This document shows positions 18,715-57,337 of a stretch of 64,000 nt of DNA, piece after piece; position 1 is the first letter of the stretch, and each line of letters begins with the position of its first letter. The stretch covers positions 1 to 64,000 of the forward strand of contig JAENZN010000022.1 of assembly GCA_016841245.1 (NCBI GenBank), read 5' to 3'. The position numbers were made by a program, and so were the translations under genes. The DNA is from Syntrophomonas sp. (GTDB lineage: Bacteria; Bacillota; Syntrophomonadia; Syntrophomonadales; Syntrophomonadaceae). Under the pieces are notes generated by a model, which worked only from the letters and a program-made list of their open reading frames with translations, ran no database searches and was not told where the DNA came from.

Positions 18715-18758
18715 AAAAAAGAACCAGAAATCCTCCTCGAAAGGAATATTTCTGGTTC
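18715..18758 (-). terminator. Intrinsic terminator after the alcohol dehydrogenase gene
   Basis: Minus-strand stem GAACCAGAAAT / ATTTCTGGTTC followed by TTTTTT, 28 bp beyond the stop of the dehydrogenase gene. The rest of 18473-18786 holds no gene I can support. Confidence 0.8.
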
Positions 18759-18786
18759 CAATGGAAAAGTGAATATGTGAATGAGT

Positions 18787-19842
18787 TTACTTAATATATG
18801 GGGTTACTACCCACTTGAGGCAGCCATCTTTTTTGCCGCCGAAAATATCATAACCTTTAACAATATCATTTAATGGAGCACGGTGGGTGATTAAGAAATT
18901 AGTGTTAATCTTACCGGCTTGAATCAGCTTAATTAATTCAGGAATACGGTTGGCATTTACCAATCCCATGCTGAGGGTGATGTTTTTAATCCATAAGGTA
19001 TTCATAGCAAGTTCCTGGGGTTTTTCAAATACACCAATAAAGGACACATTACCCCCTGGCCTTACAGCGTCTATGGCCATATCATAAGTTGCTTTAAAAC
19101 CATTGGCTTCAATAGTCCTGTCGGCGCCCATTCCGTTGGTCAATGCTCTGATTTGTTCTACGGCATCTCCGTTGAGTGGATTGACTCCAATATCGGCAAT
19201 ACCTTCTTTGACTGCAGCATCCAAACGCTCCTGGTTGATGTCCACAGCTATAATTTTAGAAGGCCCCCATAATCTGGCAGTGGCCATGGCACACATCCCA
19301 ACCGGACCGCACCCCATAACTGCCACTGAGTCACCATACTCAATCTTGGCATTTTCAGCACCGAAGCAGCCGGTTGACAGGATATCACCTACGAATAATA
19401 CGTCTTCTTCCGTCAGATCTTCAGGGATGGTAAACATGCCCAGGTTGGCATGAGGAACCCGCACGTATTCAGCCTGGCAACCGTCAATCATATATCCGAA
19501 GATCCAACTGCCGGTGGTGCAATGTGAATAAACTCCCCGTACACAGTAGAAACATTCACCACACTGGGTAACACAGGAAACCGCTACCTTATCCCCAACC
19601 TTATTATTCCGAACAGCTGGGCCTACCTCCACAACTTCCCCAACGAATTCATGACCAATTATTCTTCCCGGCTCTACTTCCGGCATACCGCCATGCCAGA
19701 TATGAATATCTGTTCCACAAATAGTGGATGTGGTAACTCTTACTATCGCATCGTCCGGTTCAATGATTTTTGGAACTGGAACGTCTTGCAGAGCAATTTT
19801 ATCTGGTCCGCCATATACTAAAGCTTTCATGGTATCACTCAT
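18787..19842 (-). CDS. Zinc-dependent alcohol dehydrogenase (medium-chain family)
   Basis: 351 aa. Catalytic zinc ligands are visible as CGTDIH (Cys41 region) and GHEFVGEV. The structural zinc loop is CGECFYCVRGVYSHC, and the NAD(P) fold carries VAVMGCGPVGMCA. The family oxidises secondary alcohols, diols or threonine-like substrates; similarity to clostridial secondary alcohol and butanediol dehydrogenases is the best guess. It has its own leader RNA (19915-20015) of the same type found before three nearby genes, and forms a module with the DUF2294 gene directly upstream. GGGAGG precedes the ATG. Confidence 0.85.
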   Translation of the reverse strand: MSDTMKALVYGGPDKIALQDVPVPKIIEPDDAIVRVTTSTICGTDIHIWHGGMPEVEPGRIIGHEFVGEVVEVGPAVRNNKVGDKVAVSCVTQCGECFYCVRGVYSHCTTGSWIFGYMIDGCQAEYVRVPHANLGMFTIPEDLTEEDVLFVGDILSTGCFGAENAKIEYGDSVAVMGCGPVGMCAMATARLWGPSKIIAVDINQERLDAAVKEGIADIGVNPLNGDAVEQIRALTNGMGADRTIEANGFKATYDMAIDAVRPGGNVSFIGVFEKPQELAMNTLWIKNITLSMGLVNANRIPELIKLIQAGKINTNFLITHRAPLNDIVKGYDIFGGKKDGCLKWVVTPYIK

Positions 19843-19914
19843 TATTAAATTCCCTCCCTATATTGTTAGAATAACCTTCACCATCGTAGTTAAGCCGCTA
19901 TCCTCCCCTCTAAT

Positions 19915-20015
19915 AAAAAATGACCGATACCTTTATGTTTCACTCATTGGGAGAGTTTCTGCATAAAAACATTGGTCTATTTTGGAGTCACCATAAGGGT
20001 CCTCCTAAATCCACC
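19915..20015 (-). promoter_or_regulatory. Structured leader RNA, copy 1 (before alcohol dehydrogenase)
   Basis: Sense strand minus. A conserved hairpin GGAG-G-ACC-loop-GGT-GA-CTCC is followed by GACCAATG, which pairs imperfectly with TATCGGTC just before a run of T. This is a small structured element plus terminator, about 100 nt. It begins 21 bp after the stop of the DUF2294 gene, so it can act between the two genes of a module. It matches copies at 20526, 22145 and 22732. Confidence 0.7.
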
Positions 20016-20035
20016 ACTATAAAATGGCAAATCTG

Positions 20036-20461
20036 TTAATCTGTCAAAGCTCTGTCAAAAACAATTACGTGCATCCAAAAATCATTCTCTGCTTCGATCA
20101 TATACGTTTGATGAATAGCTTTAGCTCCAAATACCGTCTCCAAATAAGGCATATTGTCAATAGAATGCTGCCGGGCCACCTGCATGCGTGCATTATTGAC
20201 CAGGTCTTTTCCTGCTGTAGTTTCTACAATATATTTTTCCGGTTCAGTCAGAAATCCTTCTCCCCGGATAATTACCATATCATCCCAAATTATGACCTTG
20301 GTGTGATCAACACCCTTACCCAGTTTTTGTTTAAAATATTTCTCCATGTAAATTTTTAATTCATGCTGCAATTGCTTTCTCTGCCGATCACTTAATTTCG
20401 CCGCCGGGCTGCCTTCACCTGAACTGTTTTCTTTAGGATTCATTTTGTAGATCGATGGCAT
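20036..20461 (-). CDS. DUF2294 (MpsC-like) domain protein, copy 1
   Basis: 141 aa. A variable 30-residue N-terminus is followed by the DUF2294 domain (now named MpsC in Pfam), recognisable from HELKIYMEKYFKQKLGKG, the IIWDDMVIIRGEGFLTEPE block and a C-terminal WMHVIVFDR strand. The biochemical role of stand-alone DUF2294 proteins is not established; no membrane segment is present. It is closely similar along its length to the protein at 22268-22696. Both have the same leader RNA, and both are followed by a leader and a dehydrogenase gene. GAGGGG precedes the ATG. Confidence 0.75.
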   Translation of the reverse strand: MPSIYKMNPKENSSGEGSPAAKLSDRQRKQLQHELKIYMEKYFKQKLGKGVDHTKVIIWDDMVIIRGEGFLTEPEKYIVETTAGKDLVNNARMQVARQHSIDNMPYLETVFGAKAIHQTYMIEAENDFWMHVIVFDRALTD

Positions 20462-20525
20462 AATCTTTATCCCCTCACATAATATAATAAGATTTCAGGT
20501 CAAATCGCTGCAAAGGACGTGGGAA

Positions 20526-20614
20526 TAAAAAAAAACCAACCCTTTACGAAATATTCTTCGCAAAACCATTGGTTTTCTTGGAGCCACCTTATGCGGTCTC
20601 TCTTTTACCCACCA
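20526..20614 (-). promoter_or_regulatory. Structured leader RNA, copy 2 (before DUF2294 copy 1)
   Basis: Sense strand minus. The hairpin GAG-AG-ACC-loop-GGT-GG-CTC is followed by AACCAATGG, which pairs with TTGGTT before a run of nine T. It matches the other three copies in the order and sequence of elements. It ends about 65 bp upstream of the start codon. Confidence 0.7.
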
Positions 20615-20679
20615 AGTGTTTATATTACTACGTTTAACATATATTACTATATATATTTGAGATTAGTATAAATTTTATC

Positions 20680-20955
20680 ATGGTGGATGTCAATAAAATT
20701 TTTTTATTTTTCTCATGTCAGACAAAATTGACTGATTTATATTTTGATTTTTCCAACCGAAAAGCACCTCTACATTATACATGGTTCCAGGATACCCTTC
20801 ACAGTGCTAATCTGACAGTTATTAAGGACCCCAAAACCAACAGTCTATATTACCTAAAGAATCAAACCAACGATAACCTTTCGATAGGCCTAGGCTCTTT
20901 ATACCTTTCTGAAATTTCCCCATACGGGAGAATAAACGATATCTTGAATTCTTAG
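20680..20955 (+). CDS. Unrecognised open reading frame, doubtful
   Basis: 91 codons on the plus strand in a 470-bp space between divergent leader and SDR gene. No family is recognised, the composition is ordinary, and no ribosome binding site precedes the ATG. The only support is a terminator-like hairpin directly downstream whose T-rich side faces this direction. Confidence 0.2.
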   Translation: MVDVNKIFLFFSCQTKLTDLYFDFSNRKAPLHYTWFQDTLHSANLTVIKDPKTNSLYYLKNQTNDNLSIGLGSLYLSEISPYGRINDILNS

Positions 20956-20977
20956 ATATACTCTCTATAAATTAAAT

Positions 20978-21024
20978 AGGCCCTCAACTGCCATTATACA
21001 GGGAGTTGAAGGCCTTTCTTTTCT
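20978..21024. terminator. Terminator hairpin between the doubtful plus-strand frame and the SDR gene
   Basis: Imperfect 15-bp stem (20978-20992 with 21001-21015; AGGCC...GGCCT) with an 8-nt loop. TTTCTTTTCTT follows on the plus strand. On the minus strand it lies 65 bp past the SDR stop with a weaker T-tract, so it could serve either direction. Confidence 0.6.
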
Positions 21025-21088
21025 TCTAATGTTAAAATTCTGGGGTCAGCGGCTAAAATCCGCCCCAATCCTAATTATTAGGCTATTT

Positions 21089-22018
21089 TTAGCCGGCAGT
21101 ATAACCCCCATCAATTACTAATTTTTGACCTGTTATAAAGGATGCATCATCTGACATTAAGAATATTGCGGGCTTGGCAATTTCATCAGGAACTCCCATA
21201 CGACCGCCATATTTACCACGAGGAACGATTTCTTTATCTTTTACAGGGTCATTACATAATGGATGTAATGCTGCTAATTGAGCAAAGTCAAATGCTTCCG
21301 TTGTCAATGAGTCTTGTTCTGCCAAATCATTTTTATCGGCAGCTACAGCTGCTTGGAATAATGGTGTCATAATATAACCTGGATTTACAGTATTTATACG
21401 TATACCATATTCTGCAAATTGCAGGGCTAATGCCTTTGATAAACCAACCACACCATGTTTACCCATTGTATATTGAATTAAATTGAAGCGTTCAATAAAA
21501 ACTTCACCGGTTTCACAATTTACAACTTTAGGACGGCCAGCAACACCATGAATACTAGAAACCATCACGATTGAACCTTTGGTTCCATGTTTGATCATTA
21601 AGCGGGAACCATATAATGCGGTATAGAATACTCCATCTTCATTAATACTTTGAATAAATTTACGAGATTTTAATACTTCTTCCGGGTCTTGATCAAAATC
21701 TTCTGCAGTTACCACACCAGCATTAGCCATTATTGCATCTACAGTTCCATAAGTCTTTTCTGTAATTTCAAATAATTTTTCAACATCTTTAGGGTCAGAT
21801 ACATTAGTGTGAACATAAATTGCGTGTCCGGCACCATATTTATCATTTAATTCCTTAACAAAATCTTCACCTAATTTGTCATTAATGTCAGACACAACTA
21901 CCCCTCTTGCTCCTTCAACCAATGCTTCACGAACTGTTGCTGACCCGATAGAGTCAAAACCAGGAATTGCTGAAACCGAACCAGTCACTACTACTACTTT
22001 GCCATCTAATTTCCCCAT
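21089..22018 (-). CDS. Short-chain dehydrogenase/reductase (SDR family)
   Basis: 309 aa from the ATG at 22018, which has AGGAAGG upstream; the frame extends 22 codons further without a better site. The Rossmann start VVVVTGSVSAIPGFDSIG departs from the usual TGxxxGIG spacing, an insertion of a few residues. Other hallmarks are present: NAGVV, catalytic Ser in VMVSSIHG, YxxxK as YTMGK, NPGYIMTP, and a classical C-terminus (ITGQKLVIDGGYTAG). It oxidises an alcohol or reduces a carbonyl, substrate unknown. It forms the second module with DUF2294 copy 2 and has its own leader RNA. Confidence 0.85.
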   Translation of the reverse strand: MGKLDGKVVVVTGSVSAIPGFDSIGSATVREALVEGARGVVVSDINDKLGEDFVKELNDKYGAGHAIYVHTNVSDPKDVEKLFEITEKTYGTVDAIMANAGVVTAEDFDQDPEEVLKSRKFIQSINEDGVFYTALYGSRLMIKHGTKGSIVMVSSIHGVAGRPKVVNCETGEVFIERFNLIQYTMGKHGVVGLSKALALQFAEYGIRINTVNPGYIMTPLFQAAVAADKNDLAEQDSLTTEAFDFAQLAALHPLCNDPVKDKEIVPRGKYGGRMGVPDEIAKPAIFLMSDDASFITGQKLVIDGGYTAG

Positions 22019-22144
22019 TATAAATTCCACCTTCCTAATATTTTTTCTTACGATAAAGAGTATTTCCCTAATGAATGGAGGCATTGATAAAAAATATTAT
22101 TATAACCGGAAATATTTTTGCTTTATTACTACCTCCTTTCAAAG

Positions 22145-22248
22145 AAAAAAGACCGATATTATTATAACTTTAACCCGTTGCCGAGTTTCATCACAAAAAC
22201 ATTGGTCTACTTCGGAGACACCTGATGGTATCCCCTTAATCTCCCAAA
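22145..22248 (-). promoter_or_regulatory. Structured leader RNA, copy 3 (before SDR)
   Basis: Sense strand minus. The hairpin GGGG-AT-ACC-loop-GGT-GT-CTCC is followed by GACCAATG and, about 45 nt later, ATATCGGTC with six T. It starts about 20 bp after the stop of DUF2294 copy 2, the same geometry as copy 1. Confidence 0.7.
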
Positions 22249-22267
22249 GTATTCAGTTGTAACTATC

Positions 22268-22696
22268 TTATTGGGTTAAGATTCGATTAAAAACCATAAC
22301 ATGCATCCAGAAGTCTTTTTCCGCATCAACCATATATGTCTGGTGGATTACTTTGGCGCTCAATAAAGTTTGAAAATAAGGTATATTATCGATAGCATGC
22401 TGCCTGGCTACATGCATCCGGGCATCATTAACAACATCTTTCCCGGCGGTAGTTTTAACAATATACTTTTCAGGTTCGGTTAAAAACCCTTCACCTTGAA
22501 TGATAAGCATATCATCCCAAAGCACAATTTTGGTATAATCAACGCTTTTGCCCAGTTTTTGTTTAAAGTATTTTTCCATATAGATTTTTAATTCGTGCTG
22601 AATTTTTTTGCGTTCTCGTTCATTTAGTTTATTTATATCACTATTGTTATCGTTTGAGCAGTTTCCTTGAAAATCCACCTTATGAATCGATGCCAT
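22268..22696 (-). CDS. DUF2294 (MpsC-like) domain protein, copy 2
   Basis: 142 aa, a paralogue of the protein at 20036-20461. The shared core includes HELKIYMEKYFKQKLGK, DDMLIIQGEGFLTEPEKYIV and TAGKDVVNDARMHVARQHAI, while the first 30 residues differ. It lacks signal peptide and membrane segments. Function unproven. Stand-alone members are widespread in Firmicutes, and the Pfam name derives from a domain of staphylococcal MpsC. It is preceded by leader copy 4 and a strong promoter, and followed by leader copy 3 and the SDR gene. Confidence 0.75.
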   Translation of the reverse strand: MASIHKVDFQGNCSNDNNSDINKLNERERKKIQHELKIYMEKYFKQKLGKSVDYTKIVLWDDMLIIQGEGFLTEPEKYIVKTTAGKDVVNDARMHVARQHAIDNIPYFQTLLSAKVIHQTYMVDAEKDFWMHVMVFNRILTQ

Positions 22697-22731
22697 ATAA
22701 TAATGTTCCCCCCTTTATGTATCAAAAAATG

Positions 22732-22826
22732 AAAAAACCAATATCTCACCAAAAGACCAATACCAGCCTTATGATAAAAATATTGGTTTACCAGGAGCCA
22801 CCCCAGAGGTATCCCCTTGTCCCCAC
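22732..22826 (-). promoter_or_regulatory. Structured leader RNA, copy 4 (before DUF2294 copy 2)
   Basis: Sense strand minus. The hairpin GGGG-AT-ACC-loop-GGT-GG-CTCC is followed by ACCAATA pairing perfectly with TATTGGT and a T-run; a second ATTGGTTTTTT follows downstream. This is the cleanest of the four copies. Confidence 0.75.
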
Positions 22827-22866
22827 AATAATATACATAATAAAAATAATCTATTCCTTTATATAA

Positions 22867-22895
22867 ATTATATATATTTACCAAAATCTTATCAA
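22867..22895 (-). promoter_or_regulatory. Sigma-A promoter of the DUF2294 copy 2 module
   Basis: Minus strand TTGATA, 17-nt spacer, TATAAT, a near-consensus promoter about 40 bp upstream of leader copy 4. The adjoining space 22896-23084 holds a 12-bp inverted repeat (AAAAAAGGTGAA, 22949-22960, with 23042-23053) of unclear meaning. Confidence 0.7.
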
Positions 22896-56551: not shown

Positions 56552-57337
56552 GGCTATAGGCCGTACGCCAATAGCCTTTTCTTGTGTTTGCCCACATCCA
56601 TGCCTGCTCTTCCTTGTTTCCCAAGCGCTTGAGGTTCTCGAAACGTGTGCGGATTTTCTTCCATCGTTTCTAAGTTACCATCCGAACGCGACTTCTAATC
56701 CATTCGTCCAAACTCTGTATTAAGCTCTTTGCATCTGCCAATTTGAAGTAGTTCATCCACCCGCGTATCATCTGGTTTAGCCGGTTTTTTCTCGCCTCAA
56801 TTCCCATCCCATTGTGCGTCCTGTAATTTCCCTGATTTTATCCTTGAATTTCCGAACGCTCTTGGAATATATTCTGAGTCTTCCTTCTCCTTTACAGATG
56901 TAGAAGCTGTAACTGTCACTTTCAGTAACCTTCATTGACCCACACCTCCTTTGGTTCAGCCCTTCCTTCGGCATCGCGCTGCCTCCGTACTATGGCCTCT
57001 GCTGACTTCTCACGATAAATCTTGTTTCAACCGGGCTTCTTACTCTGTTTCTGCCCGTCCGTGAGACCTCCCCGGGTAAGGACGCAGTCTTTCCTTCCAT
57101 CTATCTGCCACATCTACACCGTAAGCTTCCGGATAGTTTTGGGCTTCAGTTTGTTCGGCAACCTTACCCAGCCTACATATGCCTTATGTGATTTCTGTTC
57201 GTCAGACCAGAAGTTTGCCTCCGGCTTCCTTCAGATTCCACCTCACGATGGACACCCTTGCCCTTGGCTATGTGCTTGGCACTATCAACCCGCACTCGGG
57301 ACTTTCACCCGTTAGACTGCGCCCATGCCGGGCGCAC
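56552..57337 (-). mobile_element. Decayed group IIC intron with internally deleted maturase
   Basis: Minus strand. The 5' end is GTGCGCCCGGC at 57337, followed by domain I-like sequence (GGGTGAAAGTCCCGAGTGCGG). It lies just 3 nt after the T-run of the rpsI terminator, the insertion preference of class C introns. The maturase starts at ATG 56935 (AGGAGG upstream) but after ten codons jumps to the end of the maturase domain (GEGRLRIYSKSVRKFKDKIR). Further fragments follow: GWMNYFKLADAKSLIQSLDE, RWKKIRTRFENLKRLG and WANTRKGYWRTAYSP, with interrupting stops. The reverse transcriptase core and domain V are missing, so it is immobile. Confidence 0.8.

Follow-up and report, generated by a model that had tools for sequence, protein, structure and literature searches.

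What controls a pair of genes that occurs twice in the same stretch of DNA, each time with a similar leader in front of each of its members? The question is raised by a 64-kb window (the whole stretch analysed here, positions 1 to 64,000 of contig JAENZN010000022.1) from a relative of Syntrophomonas, in which two head-to-tail operons are encoded, both on the minus strand. In each of them a promoter is followed by a leader, a gene of the MpsC/DUF2294 family (PF10057), a second leader and a dehydrogenase gene, which belongs to the short-chain dehydrogenases/reductases (SDR) in module 1 and to the zinc-dependent medium-chain dehydrogenases/reductases (Zn-MDR) in module 2. This double arrangement had been proposed in an initial annotation made from the sequence, and the Pfam search recovered it, with PF10057 detected twice, one Zn-MDR and one SDR. 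The reading that we favour, with moderate confidence, is that each leader is a transcription attenuator of a new class, most likely opened by the DUF2294 protein acting as an RNA-binding antiterminator.

The RNA element and its overlap with a terminator

The element was described by R1, a covariance model of 51 positions. At E ≤ 0.1 the model gives exactly four matches in the window, which agrees with the earlier assignment of one element to the four leaders, and these are the total for the host genome; two of them (20615-20565 and 22247-22198) were outside the training set. The core, of about 50 nucleotides, reads GGUGGAUUN - GGAG-AA-ACC-loop-GGU-GG-CUCC - NARNARACC and forms a two-part hairpin (P2/P3). 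The four leaders can be aligned with one another. Each copy has the features noted before, namely the stem GRG(G)-NN-ACC/GGT-GN-CTC(C), the RACCAAT, and a terminator plus T-run. Deviations are small: the outer stem of the copy at 20615 has only 3 bp, and in the copy at 20017 a single base on the 5′ side is unpaired.

The pairing is conserved. Among 88 distinct copies, P2/P3 together with a proposed GGU-ACC pair showed 92% of standard pairs, against 23-51% in slid controls, and compensatory changes were observed at 6 of the 7 P2/P3 pairs (37 compensatory cells, compared with 8.9 in shuffles). RNAalifold, applied to the model-aligned rows, predicted 2 pairs only, so the support from covariation rests on the pair counts for the named structure, which we judge the better test. 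The internal loop between P2 and P3 contains a near-invariant A19.G41 plus a purine pair that alternates between A.G and G.A. Positions G8, C22, G38, A54, C55, and C56 never vary, and the same holds for G4 wherever it is present.

The invariant ACC starts the 5′ arm of a hairpin flanked by a T-run in 98 of 113 copies, compared with 4 of 113 when the downstream sequence was shuffled, and the arms of this terminator covary across the 113 copies. An upstream GGU is able to pair with the ACC in 93% of the cells, and we infer that core and terminator compete for it. Rfam 15 gave no match in the window region, either at the gathering score or at E ≤ 5, the T-box being among the families with none, and no match over the copies in the loci of seven relatives. 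In relatives across many families the motif adjoins DUF2294 and dehydrogenase genes, and in the related genomes searched with the covariance model its paired positions covary. A new class of attenuator RNA, absent from Rfam 15, is well supported, as is the view of the initial annotation that the leaders hold an unassigned RNA linked to a terminator, be it a riboswitch or a protein-controlled attenuator.

Within the window (all features on the minus strand), module 1 has a putative sigma-70-like promoter at 22867-22895 (TTGATA-17-TATAAT), which matches 11/12 of the consensus and is the joint best of the region. It is followed by leader 1 (22728-22829; core 22829-22779, terminator hairpin at about 22789-22734 and T-run; R1 46.6 bits), the DUF2294/MpsC gene (22268-22696, 142 amino acids, PF10057 E = 1.9e-21), leader 2 (22144-22247; core 22247-22198, hairpin at about 22208-22150 and T-run; 42.7 bits) and the SDR-family gene (21089-22018, PF13561/PF00106), whose start at MGKLDG... 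was inferred by aligning relatives, the longest open reading frame reaching 22084. The putative sigma-70-like promoter of module 2 lies at 20665-20693 (TTGACA-17-TATACT, 11/12 of the consensus); despite these matches at both promoters, the promoter scan overall was at chance level. Then come leader 3 (20529-20615; core 20615-20565, hairpin with T-run at about 20579-20529; 41.3 bits), the second DUF2294/MpsC gene (20036-20461, 141 amino acids, E = 2.2e-25), leader 4 (19915-20017; core 20017-19968, hairpin at about 19977-19922 and T-run; 56.8 bits) and the Zn-dependent MDR gene (18787-19842, 351 amino acids, PF08240/PF00107). The two DUF2294 proteins score 89 and 77 bits against PF10057, where the Pfam cut-off is 23. 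Leaders 1, 2, and 3 fold strongly better than their dinucleotide shuffles (z −3.6, −5.1, and −4.6, respectively) and leader 4 does not (z −1.25). Considering that the second leader of each operon begins some 20 nucleotides past the stop codon of DUF2294, it acts on read-through within the operon. Elsewhere in the window, at 56959-57252 on the minus strand, there is a group II intron RNA (D1-D4 families RF02001 and RF01998).

Distribution and association with DUF2294

The PF10057 genes of the window's family, the Syntrophomonadaceae, led to 30 loci, and the element precedes most of these genes and then again the next gene. The covariance model recovered roughly 90 to 110 more distinct copies in Bacillota, mostly in known or presumed syntrophs and nearly all ahead of a DUF2294 or an MDR/SDR gene. 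R1-positive genomes amount to 24 of 54 in the family and 28 of 63 in the class; in a sample of the phylum they were 18 of 398, nine of which come from outside the order of the window, a count to be read as a lower bound since 14 candidates were scored per genome and weak copies in one genome (G165) were missed. The 109 RNA copies in 57 named loci precede MDR genes (53), DUF2294 (39), SDR genes (3), and other genes (3), the remaining 11 being at a contig end or having no gene within 600 nucleotides. Tandem copies ahead of a single gene also occur, with a maximum of three. The named isolates with the RNA are Syntrophomonas wolfei subsp. methylbutyratica, Sporotomaculum syntrophicum, and Syntrophaceticus schinkii. 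The other carriers are metagenome-assembled genomes (MAGs), mostly labelled Syntrophomonas or Syntrophomonadaceae, and also Syntrophothermus, Thermacetogenium, Desulfoscipio, and others. In the group of Thermacetogenium and Syntrophaceticus the leader stands on the MDR only, and DUF2294 has none of its own. Paralogues of the MDR in two genomes (G015 and G016; loci L244 and L245), about 81% identical to that of the window, have no RNA leader, and the RNA is therefore no constant accompaniment of MDR genes.

Some further occurrences were recorded. In S. wolfei and relatives a divergent extra copy lies upstream of the DUF2294 leader (L069:2696-2745, minus strand, and in the same place in L004, L007, L016, and L158); its internal loop is shortened, and no target gene is evident close by. 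The full RNA-DUF2294-RNA-MDR module is present on two short contigs labelled Deltaproteobacteria (L166 and L173), by horizontal transfer or mis-binning. In one relative a molybdenum/tungsten cofactor riboswitch (RF01055) is found upstream of the module (L163:3607-3726).

The tie between the RNA and DUF2294 is close. All 24 RNA-bearing genomes of the family are among its 26 carriers of DUF2294, and the RNA occurs in none of the 28 genomes without DUF2294; the two carriers that have no RNA bear response-regulator fusions. Among the 440 genomes searched for both RNA and PF10057, the domain was found in 134 overall and in 34 of the 35 that bear the RNA (Fisher p = 3e-18, a figure inflated by physical linkage and shared descent). 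The RNA is absent at thirty generic PF10057 loci (L098-L127) and is tied almost exclusively to one subfamily, which has the Pfam domain in common with MpsC of Staphylococcus aureus and is set apart from the generic members by 37 diagnostic positions, among them W129 and the four additional histidines H33, H99, H117, and H131. The RNA stands mostly ahead of the DUF2294 gene itself, as is the case with autoregulated RNA-binding proteins. One genome has an SDR gene preceded by two RNAs on a contig that does not carry DUF2294, which we read as a target in trans.

The losses are also of interest for this association. In L203 (3977-4258) most of DUF2294 is missing, owing to a deletion that starts in the middle of the gene, extends into the terminator of the MDR leader, up to the T-run, and leaves the MDR intact; the DUF2294 leader is gone too, by a second deletion, so that the MDR is left unattenuated. 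G055 holds a decayed module in which just the tail of DUF2294 remains. On balance the comparisons among genomes favour DUF2294 as a putative trans-acting RNA-binding factor, one of the possibilities raised by the initial annotation.

Swol_1727 and the syntrophic condition

Syntrophic bacteria depend for their living on the transfer of hydrogen or formate to a methanogenic partner, and the MDR of the window is the probable orthologue of a protein of S. wolfei, Swol_1727. The assignment was made through G037, a genome on a single contig of 2,936,195 bp, congeneric with S. wolfei subsp. methylbutyratica, in which Rex is at 1,869,922 and GroEL at 2,121,237. Interpolation between the published tags Swol_1645 and Swol_1855 predicts Swol_1727 at about 1,968,050 in this genome, and its RNA-led MDR is located at 1,968,979-1,970,034. 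This is the sole ADH_N protein of the genome, and the MDR of the window is 85% identical to it. Position and uniqueness thus fit the RNA-led MDR of G037 being Swol_1727. A further GroEL reading frame of this genome (G037:C1:1799383-1800826) is split into two pieces and seems to be a broken copy.

Swol_1727 was undetected in axenic culture and was among the most abundant proteins in co-culture with a methanogen, with a normalized spectral abundance factor of 0.019-0.028 (PMC4324140). Orthologues were described in other syntrophs, and in that report of 2015 function and regulation were given as unknown (PMC4324140). That the target of the RNA in S. wolfei is this protein, seen only in co-culture, is strongly supported, if by an indirect route, and, judging by the published proteomics, the condition in which the gene is on is that a syntrophic partner is present.

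A candidate mechanism and its alternatives

Taking into account the overlap between core and terminator, the following sequence of events can be proposed. By default the nascent RNA would fold the P2/P3 hairpin and then the intrinsic terminator, and the downstream gene would be off. If the core were held in its own fold, with the ACC kept back and possibly paired with the upstream GGU, the terminator would not form and RNA polymerase would continue. The DUF2294 protein would be the factor that binds and holds the core, its state being set by the syntrophic condition of the cell; binding would turn on its own gene, as positive feedback, together with the dehydrogenase.

Several known systems offer comparisons. 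In BglG/LicT regulation, a small upstream hairpin is held by a protein whose gene lies next to its targets, and RNA polymerase can then pass. As in the ribonucleic antiterminator (RAT) of that system, the 3′ end of the small upstream hairpin is here shared with the 5′ arm of the terminator; unlike it, the core is larger, the protein family is unrelated and CAT_RBD (PF03123) was found in 0 of the 63 genomes of the class, a search that was positive in 4 control genomes, for which reason a LicT/RAT system was rejected. ANTAR, an output domain that binds RNA and is frequently joined to a response regulator, has an RNA site made up of two hairpins. Tandem attenuators are shared with the ANTAR antiterminators (EutV and AmiR), and MpsC too is found fused to response regulators beside a histidine kinase, whereas the RNA described here consists of a single hairpin interrupted by an internal loop, and the linked DUF2294 lacks both ANTAR and receiver domains (PF10057 only, by Pfam). 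With HutP and PyrR there would be in common a small operon-encoded protein acting on a leader terminator and the autoregulation of the first gene, but no sequence match and no fold match were found, and the RNA sequence and the targets differ.

Regarding the protein, DUF2294 was not matched by sequence to any solved structure. AlphaFold predicted for the DUF2294 of module 2 a confident alpha-beta-beta-alpha-alpha-beta-beta domain (predicted local distance difference test 86). The order of strands and helices suggested a type II KH fold, and this candidate was set aside, as no KH protein was among the matches listed by Foldseek and VIA-align, which included BcsD and TRAPP at Z ≤ 6.9. Fusions of MpsC/DUF2294 with a response-regulator receiver directly follow a histidine kinase gene at L026:1045-1830 and L027:1495-2295; they were confirmed by Pfam in two genomes, beside the kinase (G043 and G044), and detected by sequence alone in G117, G350, and G408, and their architecture resembles REC-ANTAR. 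In L254 the domain is fused once to an apparent helix-turn-helix domain. These fusions are compatible with a signalling role, and RNA binding is not thereby demonstrated. Deletion of mpsC in S. aureus had no phenotype, and mpsC was dispensable for MpsAB (PMC6689103). The literature searched, which excludes most subscription journals, contained no account of the RNA or of a function for the linked DUF2294 group. A viral origin was rejected, as no DUF2294 of this kind was found in the viral contigs scanned.

Besides the inflated co-occurrence, a number of observations weigh against DUF2294 as the antiterminator. The main counterexample is G059, a draft 98% complete in 200 contigs, in which RNA, terminator, and MDR are intact and no PF10057 gene was found. 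G058 retains the terminator though it lacks DUF2294 and half of the core, and the deletions of L203 are known from a single MAG scaffold. No confident relative of the AlphaFold model was obtained among solved structures (Foldseek best E 0.04; best Z 6.9), the net charge of the linked DUF2294 is not raised, and nothing in the predicted structure would indicate RNA binding. As the ACC never varies, no covariation is seen at the GGU-ACC closing pair. Finally, the proteomic change could arise at the promoter or post-transcriptionally.

The strongest of the alternatives is a small-molecule riboswitch, in which the 50-nucleotide core, as an aptamer, would bind a metabolite or redox signal directly and block the terminator, DUF2294 being merely a co-regulated gene of the pathway. 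The compact core with its (near-)invariant unpaired G4, G8, A19, G41, and A54-C56, the tandem purines of the internal loop, the overlap with the terminator and the tandem copies (up to three ahead of one gene) are consistent with it, and so is G059, one of the 35 RNA genomes and a draft assembly, which kept RNA and MDR without DUF2294. The orphan riboswitch candidates (the Breaker and Weinberg lists, Rfam 15) are likewise compact conserved 5′ leaders with a terminator, found by covariation; unlike them, the present RNA is absent from Rfam 15 and tied to one putative regulatory protein. The presence of DUF2294 in 34 of the 35 genomes argues against a riboswitch, as does the scarcity of targets other than DUF2294 and MDR/SDR. 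Moreover, where DUF2294 was lost, in L203, G055, and G058, the RNA has also decayed or been deleted, while a riboswitch need not vanish with one of its target genes. We regard this explanation as rather unlikely.

The same linkage and autoregulatory layout would be expected if DUF2294 bound the leader yet promoted termination, in a negative autoregulation such as that of TRAP or PyrR, and G059 could then be read as constitutively on. The free RNA is, however, already predicted to fold the terminator, so that a protein favouring termination is unneeded, and L203 lost both terminators along with DUF2294, a loss that a repressor would not require; we consider this direction of control improbable. 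Attenuation by known machinery, be it a LicT/BglG-type RAT, a T-box, or some other class in Rfam, is very improbable, and so is an ordinary intergenic terminator that has no regulatory role, since, in spite of core ends (GGAUU...AAAACC) that we take to resemble the LicT RAT, neither the window copies (E ≤ 5) nor those in the seven loci matched Rfam, and a plain terminator does not need a conserved, covarying core upstream.

The analysis locates an uncatalogued conserved attenuator and a likely dedicated regulator immediately ahead of the probable Swol_1727 gene and its relatives in many syntrophic Bacillota, which bears on how syntrophic bacteria sense their methanogen partner. More tentatively, this subfamily of MpsC/DUF2294 may constitute a novel group of antiterminators which bind RNA, sense the syntrophic state and, through the new RNA, form a self-reinforcing dehydrogenase switch that is on only in partnership. 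If true, this would be the first molecular role for a part of the MpsC/DUF2294 family, whose member in S. aureus has no known function.

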